Origin: Candidatus Omnitrophota bacterium
Lineage (GTDB): Bacteria; Omnitrophota; Gorgyraeia; Gygaellales; Profunditerraquicolaceae
Reading direction: 5' to 3'
Length of the DNA: 33,022 nucleotides
NCBI GenBank assembly: GCA_026387255.1
Contig: JAPLMA010000035.1
Coordinates: forward strand, 1-33,022
Position 1 is the first letter of the stretch. Every line of letters starts with the position of its first letter. The notes beneath the pieces are model-generated. The model made no database searches, was not told where the DNA came from, and saw only the letters and a program-made list of their open reading frames with translations. This document shows positions 6,451 to 10,609 of the stretch, in pieces. The translations under genes and the position numbers were made by a program.

Positions 6451-6966
6451 ATCCAGATGCTTTTTGGCCTTAATCCTAATCTTTTGCATTAGCTTAACTA
6501 CACTCACATGAGATACCCCCATACGTTTACCTATATCTCTAGTAGTGAGCCCTTGGCTAAAGTAGGTAAGCAGCCTTTTTTCTCTTGGGTTGAAACCATT
6601 ACCCCGGATACTTTCTACTAAAAACTTGTTATGTAAATCCTGCCGGCAATCAGAACAAGCCCAATATTGACCCAAAACATCTTCTACGGTTGCTCCTTCA
6701 TTCGTACTTAAAGCCGCATCAATACTAACAATATTGAAACGCTCATTTACTTTACGGATATAATTCTTTAAATGAAAATAACAACCTTGCAGAATATAAC
6801 TATCTGTTTTATCGCTCAGCTTGCCTTTTAAAAAATTACTCCAAAGATGGATAGTTGCCTCCTGATAAAGATCATCATGGTTAAAACAGCGATAATGCCC
6901 ATTTAACCGGTAAGCAATCCTTTTTATAGTTGGCGATAACTTTTGATGCAACTCTTCAAAACTCAT
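6442..6966 (-). CDS. RNA polymerase sigma-70-family factor (small/alternative)
   Basis: 174 aa; region-2-like FNHDDLYQEATIHLWSNF and region-4-like LLTYFSQGLTTRDIGKRMGVSHVSVVKLMQKIRIKAKKHL. Confidence 0.8.
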   Translation of the reverse strand: MSFEELHQKLSPTIKRIAYRLNGHYRCFNHDDLYQEATIHLWSNFLKGKLSDKTDSYILQGCYFHLKNYIRKVNERFNIVSIDAALSTNEGATVEDVLGQYWACSDCRQDLHNKFLVESIRGNGFNPREKRLLTYFSQGLTTRDIGKRMGVSHVSVVKLMQKIRIKAKKHLDKI

Positions 6967-6985
6967 ATTTTAATCCTCAATAAAC

Positions 6986-7106
6986 AAAAAAGGCATCCCT
7001 ACCCCTATTGCTTGGGTAAAGGACGCCTTAGTCCTGACAAACAAAAAAGCCTTCCGGTAAACTTAACTCACCAGAAGACTCCTGTGTCTTTTGCTACAAC
7101 GCTGTA
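6986..7106 (-). promoter_or_regulatory. ANTAR dual-hexaloop leader with tandem terminators, sigma gene
   Basis: Minus strand: TAC-AGCGTT-GTA (7095-7106) and AAGAC-ACAGGA-GTCTT (7075-7090), loops A1/G4; terminator 7043-7077 overlaps hairpin 2; further hairpin AGGAC-TAAGGC-GTCCT (7020-7035) overlaps terminator 6986-7028. Confidence 0.75.
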
Positions 7107-7114
7107 TTAATTAA

Positions 7115-7142
7115 AGTTTAACATATTCTAATGATTTGTCAA
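7115..7142 (-). promoter_or_regulatory. Sigma-70-like promoter of the sigma gene
   Basis: Minus strand TTGACA (7137-7142)-N16-TAAACT (7115-7120), followed at once by the hexaloop leader. Confidence 0.6.
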
Positions 7143-10100
7143 CTAAAATTAAAAAAACGTTTCCGCAGTTCCTCCAGAATGAATATTAACGACATAAATA
7201 GAAACAATATACACCAGTCACTTAAACCCAAACCCGTAGTATTGAATATCTTCTGAAAAAACGGCACATAAATCAAGATACAGGTAAAAACAAACGAAAT
7301 AGCAATACTCCAAAAAATACGCATATTGCTGAAGAACCCGATCCTAAATGTTGAATATTTTTCGCTACGGCAATTAAAAACATTAGCGATCTGCATCACT
7401 ATAATACCAACAAAAAGAACGGTTATTGCCTTCAAATGAAGCGGATTAGTAAAAGTAGTATCATTTGGCTCAAGCTGCATTCCAGGTTTCCATCCTCCTT
7501 GAAAAAGTATAAAATAATACGCACCTAAAGTTGCTGAGGCGCTAAGCAATCCCAAAATAATATAACCTCTGAAAAGCACTATTTTATCGATGACCCCCTT
7601 ATTCTTAGGTCTTGGCGGAAGCTGCATAATCCCCGGCTCGGGTTTTTCTGCACCTAATGCCAAGGCGGGAAAAATCTCTGTGCCCAGGTCGATAGCTAAA
7701 ATCTGTAATACGGTTATCGGCATAGGAATTTTTAATAAAACATAGAATATAAAAGGTATCCCCTCGGGCACAAGATGCGCAAATATATAGGTAATAAATT
7801 TCTTGATATTATCAAATACTGCGCGGCCCTCTTCAATGGCAGAAACGATACTGGCAAAGTTATCATCGAGCAAAACCATTTCGGCAGATTCTTTGGCTAC
7901 ATCAGTTCCACGTAACCCCATAGCCACGCCTATATCCGAACGCTTAAGAGCGGGTGCGTCATTAACACCATCTCCGGTAACTGCAACGATATTACCCAAT
8001 TCTTTAAAGGTATTCACTACTCTTAATTTATGCTCCGGGTTTGCCCTGGCAAAAATTATTTCTTTGTTGAGGATCTTTTCCTTTAATTGCTCATCCGTCA
8101 AATGAACCAAATCTGTGCCGGTTATGACCTCATAATTCTGCGAAGAGATAATCCCTACCTGCTTAGCAATAGATAAAGCGGTCACCTGATAATCGCCGGT
8201 AATCATGACTACGCGTATTCCCGCTTTTTTACAAACAGAGATTGCTTCTTTTACTTCCGGCCGGGGAGGATCATACATGCCTGTGGCTCCGATAAAAACT
8301 AAGTCTTTTTCAACGGACTGCGCCGTCGCTTCAGAGATATCCTTTGGGTCAATTTTACAAAACGCGAGACCCAAAACCCTTAAACCCTCTTCTGCGAATC
8401 CATCAATATAAGCGGATATTTCTAATCTCTTCTTTTCTGTTAAATCTACAGCATCGTTCCCAATCATAACCTTAACGGAAAGCTCCAGAATCTCTTTAGG
8501 AGACCCCTTAACAAACGTATAGGTATATCCGTCACTAAGGGTGTGGACAGAGCTCATTCTCTTACGAATTGATTCAAATGGAAAACGTTTAAGAACATGA
8601 TATTTCGGGCGCTCTTGGTCAGCGTCATAACCAGCTTTTTTCATCAAAGTCAATAATGCAGCTTCCGTAGGATCACCAATGACGCTCCAATACTTTGCTA
8701 TCTCTGTAGGAGGATTCAGCTTTGCGGTATTACATAATGCACAGGTATGCATCAACTGATCAAAAGCAACGGTTCTAATCTCATTTTTCAGAAGAGTGCT
8801 GTCCTTAAAAGTAAATTCTCCTACCGGTTCATATCCACTTCCGGACACCTCAATAACTTTATCATTAATCCAAATTTTTCGAACGCTCATTTGGTTAGTT
8901 GTCAGCGTACCGGTTTTATCCGTACAAATAACATTAGTACAACCCAAGGTTTCTACTGAAGAAAGTTTTTTTATCAGAGCTTTACGTTTTGCCATCCTCT
9001 GTACGGCCATAGCAAGGGCAAGAGTTAACGTAGGCATGAGACCTTGAGGAACATTAGCCGTAATAATACCTATAGCAAACATTCCTGAAGCAAAAACCGT
9101 CAATTTAGTAAAGAATAAACCCGCGAAAAAGAAAACAAAACCAATAACAACCGATATAAATGCAATCAATCTGCCTATACGGTTGACTTCTTTCTGTAGC
9201 GGACTAAGATCTTCTTTAACCGTCTGCGTCAAGTATGCAATTTTACCGATCTCCGTTCCCATACCAGTGGCAATAACCACCGCTTTTCCCATACCAGAGG
9301 CAACGCTGGTTCCCGCAAAAACCAGATTAGGCATTTCAAGCCAAAGAAAATCCTTTCCATCATGAAATTCTTCTGAAAATTTATACGATAGTTTGGATTC
9401 GCCGGAGAAGGCGCTATTGTTAAGGCGTAATTCATGAGCCTCAATTAGCCTGGCATCCGCAGGGACATTATCTCCTTCCTCCAACATAATGATATCACCC
9501 GGGACAATCTCGCTTGTCGAAACAAGTCTCTCCTCGCCTTCTCTTATCAAGCGCGCATTGGAAGGGATCAGTTTTGAGAGCGCCTCAATCGCCTTCTCCG
9601 CTTTAAACTCCTGCCAGAAACTAAATACCGCATTAATAAAAACTACAGCAATACATGCCCAACCAGCCTCCGGCATCTGTGCCCAAAAACAAAGAACGCT
9701 GCAAAACCACATCATAACCGCCAATAAATTGGTAAGATGGGATAAGAACCTTATAATTAACAGTGTTTTTTTGACGGCTTTTAATTTATTAGCTCCATAT
9801 ACCTCCAACCGTTTTTTCGCAGAAAATTCGGAGATCCCGTTATCGCTGCTTGCTAATTCAAGATAAATCTCCTCTTTACTTAAAGCAAGAAAACCATCTT
9901 TTTCAACCCCTCCGTGCTGTAATGTCCGATAAAGCTCCTCATTGGTTGAACAATTCAGAAGTTGCCGTATAAATACCTTGTTATCCAAAAGCACAGCTAG
10001 CTTAGATATAATCTTAAGATGCGTTTCACTTTCCACTAATGGAGTAAGAAAAAGCACGACCAAATGCACCGGTTTTTTATCAATAGAGGAAAAATCTATT

Positions 10101-10357
10101 CCCTGCTTTGAGATACCGATAAATATCAATCCGGCTTTTAGTTCGGCTACTCTAGCATGAGGAATAGCTATACCATCCCCCGTTCCGGTAGTTCCGAGTC
10201 TTTCCCTTTTCAGGAGACTTTCCAAAACGTGTTTTTTGTCTTTTATTTTCCGGCTTTTATAAAACTGATCAACGATCTCTCGAATCACACCTTCACTAGT
10301 ATGAGATTTCAAGTTTATATCCACCAGATCCTTATTTATCAAATCAGCGATTTTCAT
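7139..10357 (-). CDS. Na+/K+-ATPase-like (P2-type) cation ATPase with N-terminal PtsN-like PTS EIIA domain
   Basis: N-term MKIADLINKDLVDINLKSHTSEG...RERLGTTGTGDGIAIPHARV (EIIA-Ntr-like with His); ATPase motifs SGES, CTDKTGTLT, TGDGVNDAPALK, AIDLGTEIFPALALGAE. ORF track start (10414) lies in the terminator; ATG 10357 has AAGGAGAG RBS. Confidence 0.9.
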   Translation of the reverse strand: MKIADLINKDLVDINLKSHTSEGVIREIVDQFYKSRKIKDKKHVLESLLKRERLGTTGTGDGIAIPHARVAELKAGLIFIGISKQGIDFSSIDKKPVHLVVLFLTPLVESETHLKIISKLAVLLDNKVFIRQLLNCSTNEELYRTLQHGGVEKDGFLALSKEEIYLELASSDNGISEFSAKKRLEVYGANKLKAVKKTLLIIRFLSHLTNLLAVMMWFCSVLCFWAQMPEAGWACIAVVFINAVFSFWQEFKAEKAIEALSKLIPSNARLIREGEERLVSTSEIVPGDIIMLEEGDNVPADARLIEAHELRLNNSAFSGESKLSYKFSEEFHDGKDFLWLEMPNLVFAGTSVASGMGKAVVIATGMGTEIGKIAYLTQTVKEDLSPLQKEVNRIGRLIAFISVVIGFVFFFAGLFFTKLTVFASGMFAIGIITANVPQGLMPTLTLALAMAVQRMAKRKALIKKLSSVETLGCTNVICTDKTGTLTTNQMSVRKIWINDKVIEVSGSGYEPVGEFTFKDSTLLKNEIRTVAFDQLMHTCALCNTAKLNPPTEIAKYWSVIGDPTEAALLTLMKKAGYDADQERPKYHVLKRFPFESIRKRMSSVHTLSDGYTYTFVKGSPKEILELSVKVMIGNDAVDLTEKKRLEISAYIDGFAEEGLRVLGLAFCKIDPKDISEATAQSVEKDLVFIGATGMYDPPRPEVKEAISVCKKAGIRVVMITGDYQVTALSIAKQVGIISSQNYEVITGTDLVHLTDEQLKEKILNKEIIFARANPEHKLRVVNTFKELGNIVAVTGDGVNDAPALKRSDIGVAMGLRGTDVAKESAEMVLLDDNFASIVSAIEEGRAVFDNIKKFITYIFAHLVPEGIPFIFYVLLKIPMPITVLQILAIDLGTEIFPALALGAEKPEPGIMQLPPRPKNKGVIDKIVLFRGYIILGLLSASATLGAYYFILFQGGWKPGMQLEPNDTTFTNPLHLKAITVLFVGIIVMQIANVFNCRSEKYSTFRIGFFSNMRIFWSIAISFVFTCILIYVPFFQKIFNTTGLGLSDWCILFLFMSLIFILEELRKRFFNFS

Positions 10358-10395
10358 TTCTTGCTCTCCTTTTATATCAATGGCCTCATACAAAG

Positions 10396-10421
10396 AAAAA
10401 ACCAGAGGACGCATTCTCTGG
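10396..10421 (-). terminator. Intrinsic terminator downstream of the c-di-AMP riboswitch
   Basis: Minus strand CCAGAG-AATGCGTC-CTCTGG-TTTTTT. Confidence 0.85.
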
Positions 10422-10436
10422 TGTGTTCTCTCAAAA

Positions 10437-10601
10437 ATAGGCTTACGAGGTTAGCTGTCGGGCTAGGATTGAGTAATCCTAATCTAAAATCATCTAGATA
10501 TTCGCCCCAAGGTTATTTTAATTAACCTTCTCTTGGTTTCCCCGCTATCCCTTTAGGCCTGCATAAAAATCATTACATCCCTAAAGAGAGATTAAGCATA
10601 T
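10437..10601 (-). ncRNA. Cyclic di-AMP (ydaO/yuaA-type) riboswitch
   Basis: Minus strand: ATGCTTAATCTCT...ATAGCGGGGAAACCAAGAG...CTTGGGGCGAATAT...TCCTAGCCCGACAGCTAACCTCGTAAGCC; matches the conserved ydaO pieces (GCUUAAUCU, AGCGGGG, GGGGYGAA, GWCAGCUAACCUCGUAAGC). Confidence 0.92.
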
Positions 10602-10609
10602 AGAAAATA

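Follow-up and report, generated by a model that had tools for sequence, protein, structure and literature searches.

Antiterminators of the ANTAR type are known from the regulons of EutV in Enterococcus faecalis, NasR in Klebsiella and AmiR in Pseudomonas (PMC3369931, PMC7496416). Their published RNA target is made of two hairpins with hexanucleotide loops that carry A at position 1 and G at position 4 (A1/G4), the second of which overlaps a terminator, and it is mostly found on nitrogen genes (PMC3369931). SELEX experiments with NasR revealed a preference for a C:G closing pair together with A1/G4 (PMC7496416). Both hairpins are required in the best-studied targets, and the linker that separates them is 5-12 nt long in natural eut targets, with linkers of 3 or 14 nt impairing induction (PMC3369931). 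It is also known that the expression of a sigma operon may be controlled by riboswitch-mediated termination. As for global nitrogen control, sigma-54 with NtrC, on the one hand, and GlnR, on the other, govern amtB, glnB/K and glutamine synthetase.

We analysed a stretch of 33,022 nucleotides (hereafter the window; contig JAPLMA010000035.1 of assembly GCA_026387255.1) from a Candidatus Omnitrophota bacterium, in which the gene of a small alternative sigma factor is preceded by a leader that resembles this ANTAR target. ANTAR-dependent antitermination of the sigma messenger, with a feed-forward loop running from sigma to its targets, is likely to be the best explanation of this leader, and we would give it a probability of about 0.8. 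Support for this reading is comparative only; binding by an ANTAR protein is inferred, without binding or term-seq data. The genome-wide part of the work consisted of pattern, profile and RNA-model searches.

The leader of the sigma gene

A leader of approximately 130 nt lies on the minus strand, as do all features of the window described below, between the gene of a P-type ATPase, which ends at 7139, and that of a 174-residue sigma factor (6966-6442). It has a sigma-70-type promoter, TTGACA-N16-TAAACT, at 7142-7115 (TTGACA 7142-7137, TAAACT 7120-7115). Two hexaloop hairpins come next, P1 (TAC-AGCGTT-GTA, 7106-7095) and P2 (AAGAC-ACAGGA-GTCTT, 7090-7075), both with A1, G4 and a C:G closing pair. 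P2, the presumed antiterminator, has its 3' arm in common with an intrinsic terminator, T1 (7083-7043; 7083-7045 with a U-run at 7048-7043). A third hairpin, P3 (AGGAC-TAAGGC-GTCCT, 7035-7020), displays G4 and the C:G closing pair, with T at loop position 1; its loop and 3' arm are shared with a second intrinsic terminator, T2 (7029-6986; 7029-6990 with a U-run at 6991-6986), ahead of the sigma ATG at 6966. As a result of these common bases, the folds are mutually exclusive within each of the pairs P2/T1 and P3/T2.

A sequence-only reading had described this promoter, the hairpins and tandem terminators on the minus strand between 7142 and 6986, and every element was found in its place. The dual A1/G4 hexaloops that it claimed held for P1 and P2, as did the arm shared between the second hairpin and a terminator (P2 and T1). 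The further hairpin that it saw overlapping a second terminator is present as well, without a full A1/G4 loop. From this arrangement it had derived attenuation of sigma expression, which is supported, by comparative evidence only, as an ANTAR-type antiterminator, and it had added 'possibly twice in series', which is supported structurally, an ANTAR role at P3 being less certain.

The same reading had proposed to fold the RNA in both states. The minimum free energy fold of 6985-7115 contains both terminators and has an energy of -52.2 kcal/mol, whereas shuffled sequences average -29.8 (z -6.2, 0 of 200 shuffles as low); each terminator also stands out by itself (z -5.5 for T1 folded alone, z -5.2 for the T2 module at 6985-7036). 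A nascent piece of 50 nt, by contrast with the full-length RNA, folds with P2 in place of T1. Termination is therefore the default in the absence of protein, and P1 and P2 need something to hold them. P1, with only 3 bp, is absent from the protein-free fold of the leader; this is what is expected of a protein-stabilized element, but it is no proof of one.

The module formed by P1, P2 and T1 meets the description of an ANTAR target in most respects. Its stems have at least 3 bp under hexanucleotide loops (3 bp in P1, 5 bp in P2), both loops (AGCGTT and ACAGGA) have A1/G4 and the C:G closing pair, which most orthologues keep, and its second hairpin excludes an intrinsic terminator (P2 at 7090-7075 against T1 at 7083-7045). 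The linker between the two stems, 4 nt, falls between the natural 5-12 nt and the impaired 3 nt, while 5-9 nt are common in the leaders of the target genes discussed below. The P3-T2 module does not have A1/G4 in two hexaloops, being limited to a single hairpin with a TAAGGC loop.

A search of 85,462 species genomes with the sigma factor retrieved 56 loci. Candidatus Omnitrophota accounts for nearly all of them, and a few carry labels such as Elusimicrobia or Firestonebacteria. In about 20 other genomes the orthologous sigma gene is preceded by the same order of promoter, P1, P2, T1, P3 and T2, and TTGACA-N15/18-TANNNT is present in 27 of the 28 orthologous leaders examined. P1 loops (AGCGTT, AATGAA and AGAGAT, for example) and P2 loops (such as ACAGAA, AGTGAA and ATTGAG) nearly always combine A1, G4 and the C:G closing pair. 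P3 loops (TAAGGC, CAAGGC, TGAGGC and the like) retain G4 and the closing pair without A1, position 1 being T or C in most cases, and the form GGAC-nnnGnn-GTCC is kept in nearly all sigma leaders. Covariation was computed on MAFFT alignments. For the T1 helix, 95.5% of cells are paired and the covariation score exceeds that of 499 of 500 shuffles; the T2 helix has four pairs with two-sided changes, a result reached by 3 of 500 shuffles. Over 22 sigma leaders P1 is paired in 94% of cells and P2 in 97% (96% together), with stems so nearly invariant that covariation is uninformative there, and the P3 helix covaries little.

The most trivial explanation would be a chance arrangement of AT-rich sequence and ordinary terminators. 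To be sure, AT-rich DNA often contains a lone short hairpin, and some 5% of random 110-nt pieces contain one A1/G4 hexaloop. However, the order of elements conserved in about 20 other genomes, the fold at z -6.2 and the covarying T1 and T2 leave practically no room for chance.

Further variations on this theme were observed in more distant relatives (loci L057, L060, L066 and L068), where the sigma gene apparently has no TTGACA promoter and lies 3' of a nadE-like gene; their leaders have a hairpin such as GTCTC-nnnGnn-GAGAC, followed by a second hairpin overlapping a terminator.

At Rfam gathering thresholds the sigma leader has no match, and the sole match in the window, a c-di-AMP riboswitch (RF00379, 67.6 bits), lies elsewhere, at 10423-10608, 5' of the gene at 7139-10414. 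The product of this gene associates a PTS EIIA domain with a P-type cation ATPase, a fusion that is not known to us from any other place. Together, riboswitch and fusion gene may point to control of ion transport by c-di-AMP.

The sigma factor, its ANTAR neighbour and a recurrent site

The 174-residue protein belongs to the sigma-70 family, with regions 2 and 4. It scores 45.8 bits with NCBIfam TIGR02937, for which the cut-off is 42.9, and the alignment of its orthologues shows conservation of DDLYQEA/QGCYFHLKNYIRK and of a C-terminal HTH. An AlphaFold model has two confident domains, with no confidence in their relative placement (pLDDT 79, pTM 0.48), and the PDB structures that match it best are sigma factors, though the TM-scores are low. 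A few genes 5' of the sigma gene, at 11382-10660, is the gene of a GAF-ANTAR protein, the presumed antiterminator (Pfam ANTAR, 2.9e-16, and GAF); no other ANTAR domain was detected in the assembled genome (1.07 Mb, 83% complete). The GAF region has a weak similarity to the NifA profile. In related genomes a gene order recurs: aminotransferase, GAF-ANTAR, sigma, porin, amtB, glnB, GSIII (glutamine synthetase III). An ANTAR domain was found in 218 of the 286 genomes of the phylum, many of which do not have this sigma factor, so that presence of an ANTAR gene alone is not diagnostic.

Inspection of the neighbouring leaders revealed a bipartite site, GTTACCA-N15-TACTTGTA, at three places in the window: 5' of porin-amtB1-glnB (6442-6413), 5' of amtB2-glnB (3412-3383) and 5' of the GSIII gene (1502-1473). 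The assembled genome contains no further exact copy, and the closest other candidate has two mismatches. Orthologous loci contain 81 exact sites, all with a spacing of 15 and all on the strand of sigma. Within the phylum, 56 of 286 genomes have the exact site, for a total of about 115, while a control with the reversed pattern gave 0. If a strong sigma is defined by a profile E-value of at most 1e-60, with one truncated case added (43 genomes of 286), then the exact site is present in 41 of these 43 and missing from 228 of the 243 others (Fisher 2e-34). Given this co-occurrence, the sigma factor probably uses the site as its promoter, a likely assignment also based on the geometry of the site, whose recognition by sigma with core polymerase is inferred. 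Six of the 56 site-bearing genomes have no detected sigma, which incompleteness may explain.

The genes 3' of the sites are mainly amtB, glnB, GSIII and porin genes. Several other sites precede genes for a hybrid-cluster protein, for a glutamine amidotransferase, for outer-membrane barrels of other kinds, for glutamine synthetase and, with a small Fis-type regulator in between, for glutamate synthase, among others.

It might be argued that the site is the operator of an activator or a repressor rather than a sigma promoter. There is no biochemical proof of a promoter, and the six genomes with a site and without detected sigma could be cited in favour of this view. Against it, the site is made of two dissimilar blocks at a fixed 15-base spacing, without symmetry; hairpins begin as close as 6-10 nt to the end of the second block, which requires transcription to start there; and sites and sigma co-occur nearly one to one. 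We consider the operator very unlikely and keep the promoter as the preferred reading.

About 40 genomes have a weaker relative of the sigma factor (E-values between 1e-37 and 1e-59), most of them without the exact promoter, whose sequence may have changed. These genomes could provide a handle on the coevolution of a sigma factor and its promoter.

Probable attenuators 3' of the recurrent sites

Each of the three sites in the window is followed by hexaloops and terminators, a feature that the sequence-only reading did not contain. The porin/amtB1 leader has a first module with P1 (ACAC-AGTGAT-GTGT), P2 (AAC-AATGGC-GTT) and a terminator at 6402-6346, then a second one with AGAC-GCAGGC-GTCT overlapping a second terminator (6325-6274). 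In the amtB2 leader a long hairpin with a GCGGAA hexaloop is followed by GCGC-AATGTTA-GCGC and a terminator (3373-3284), and in the GSIII leader a lone hexaloop, AGAAC-AGGGGC-GTTCT, overlaps the terminator (1467-1428). A covariance model for the porin-type leader, R1, gives this leader a strong score and the GSIII leader a weak one; within the window its E-value is 0.09 for the sigma leader and 0.37 for the amtB2 leader, neither of which is among its genome-wide matches. Because these two leaders score poorly, R1 is not a general detector of hexaloop-terminator modules. An R1 match on contig C116 was rejected, as it looks like an ordinary terminator. In porin-type leaders two-sided changes are seen in P1, and 98% of cells are paired when P1 and P2 are combined.

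The coupling extends to the phylum. Among 106 distinct sites, 98 have, within 110 nt on their 3' side, a C:G-closed hexaloop that begins with A or G and has G4. Hexaloops 3' of the sites total 245, compared with 63 after dinucleotide shuffling, whereas loops of 4, 5 or 7 are about as frequent as in the shuffles. For A1/G4 hairpins the corresponding counts are 144 and 4.5, and for segments with at least two hairpins of the R1/G4 kind (a purine at position 1, not the model) they are 69 and 0.3. Random 110-nt pieces from the same loci contain an A1/G4 hexaloop hairpin in 4.9% of cases. Site leaders being related sequences, the comparisons with shuffles overstate independence, though the effect is very large. 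The first hairpin starts at least 6 nt after TACTTGTA, most often 10 nt, a gap consistent with a -10 element followed by the RNA 5' end, as inferred from sequence alone.

These figures bear on a second alternative for the sigma leader, an attenuator worked by a small molecule, by a ribosome on a leader peptide or by another RNA-binding protein. That P1 is weak by itself, that P3 departs from the A1 rule and that there are no data on ANTAR binding leave some space for it. However, loop size, A1, G4 and C:G closing are the very features recognized by ANTAR proteins (PMC3369931, PMC7496416), the enrichment in A1/G4 is specific to six-base loops, no Rfam family matches the leader and the ANTAR gene is syntenic, all of which makes a factor other than ANTAR unlikely.

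The hexaloop of the GSIII leader (1473-1425) stands alone nearly at the expected RNA 5' end, contrary to the two-hairpin rule of ANTAR targets. A comparable case was seen elsewhere in the genome, in a carAB leader (L115, C117:11382-11450), where a sigma-70-like promoter, TTGACA-N17-TATAGT, is followed by a lone hexaloop, TAAAC-AAAGGC-GTTTA, overlapping a terminator; it could be a further ANTAR target, one without sigma. Such single-hairpin modules are perhaps bound differently, or they may be plain terminators.

The same question arises for P3 and T2, which might be independent of ANTAR: a plain second terminator with a chance hairpin in its 5' arm, or the site of another regulator. In favour of this view, most orthologues begin the P3 loop with T or C, there is no P1-like partner beside P3, and the P3 helix covaries little. 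By contrast, with GGAC-nnnGnn-GTCC kept and T2 covarying, both folds look selected, and solo hexaloop-terminator modules recur in the GSIII and carAB leaders. The balance tips slightly away from independence. A second attenuation step in series is inferred from its conserved and covarying structure; recognition of P3 by the ANTAR protein is possible, though less certain because A1 is missing from its loop, and no binding data exist.

Proposed circuit and comparison with known systems

ANTAR attenuation is retained as the best explanation because the motif matches the published target, because it is conserved in the phylum and because the single ANTAR gene is located a few genes 5'. In the proposed scenario, RNA polymerase would start at TTGACA/TAAACT and stop by default at T1, or at T2 once past T1. 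The active GAF-ANTAR protein would bind the P1 and P2 hexaloops, and P2, once bound, would retain the 5' arm of T1, blocking this terminator and letting transcription continue; P3, the alternative fold to T2, would probably serve as another checkpoint that works in this way. Sigma would then drive transcription from GTTACCA-N15-TACTTGTA of porin-amtB-glnB, amtB-glnB and GSIII. These target transcripts begin with hexaloop-terminator modules and would stop early unless the same GAF-ANTAR protein acted again. Nitrogen assimilation would then be governed by a coherent, AND-like feed-forward loop, with a sharp, leak-proof response. The activating signal, which is inferred, is probably nitrogen status, because the targets are nitrogen genes and the GAF region weakly resembles the NifA profile.

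A bolder reading goes further: a phylum-wide regulon where one GAF-ANTAR protein gates the sigma messenger and nearly every transcript that sigma starts, placing initiation and elongation under one signal in a coherent feed-forward loop, with solo hexaloops as extra ANTAR checkpoints. We lean towards it, if only by a small margin.

We searched the open-access literature, without subscription papers and preprints. Nothing relevant was found there on Omnitrophota and ANTAR or on ANTAR and a sigma factor, nor any report of an ANTAR-controlled sigma, of this promoter, of the regulon or of the feed-forward loop; a word search of the main text of PMC3369931 returned no sigma-factor target. Known ANTAR antitermination concerns catabolic and nitrogen operons, and a master sigma controlled by ANTAR and feeding the same attenuators would couple initiation with elongation. 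The analysis assigns to a sigma family of an uncultured phylum a probable function in a nitrogen regulon, with a promoter that is unusually invariant, while the recurring single-hairpin modules may bear on whether one hexaloop suffices for ANTAR recognition.

The regulons of EutV, NasR and AmiR share with the Omnitrophota system the dual A1/G4, C:G-closed hexaloops, with P2 overlapping an intrinsic terminator, and the choice of nitrogen genes, those of P-II and ammonium transporters among them. What differs is that in Omnitrophota the sigma messenger is itself the probable target, with tandem modules, and that the transcripts started by sigma would be targets again. In Clostridioides difficile, premature termination in the leader of the flgB operon, which includes sigD, likewise sets the level of a sigma factor, by means of a c-di-GMP riboswitch (linked to PMC5386303). 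There the sensor is a small-molecule aptamer, as against protein-bound hexaloops in the Omnitrophota leader, and to our knowledge no matching element is present in the leaders of the targets of the C. difficile sigma. Finally, sigma-54/NtrC and GlnR also exert global control over amtB, glnB/K and glutamine synthetase, whereas the means in Omnitrophota are a 174-residue factor of the sigma-70 family and a GTTACCA-N15-TACTTGTA promoter, with attenuation in addition.
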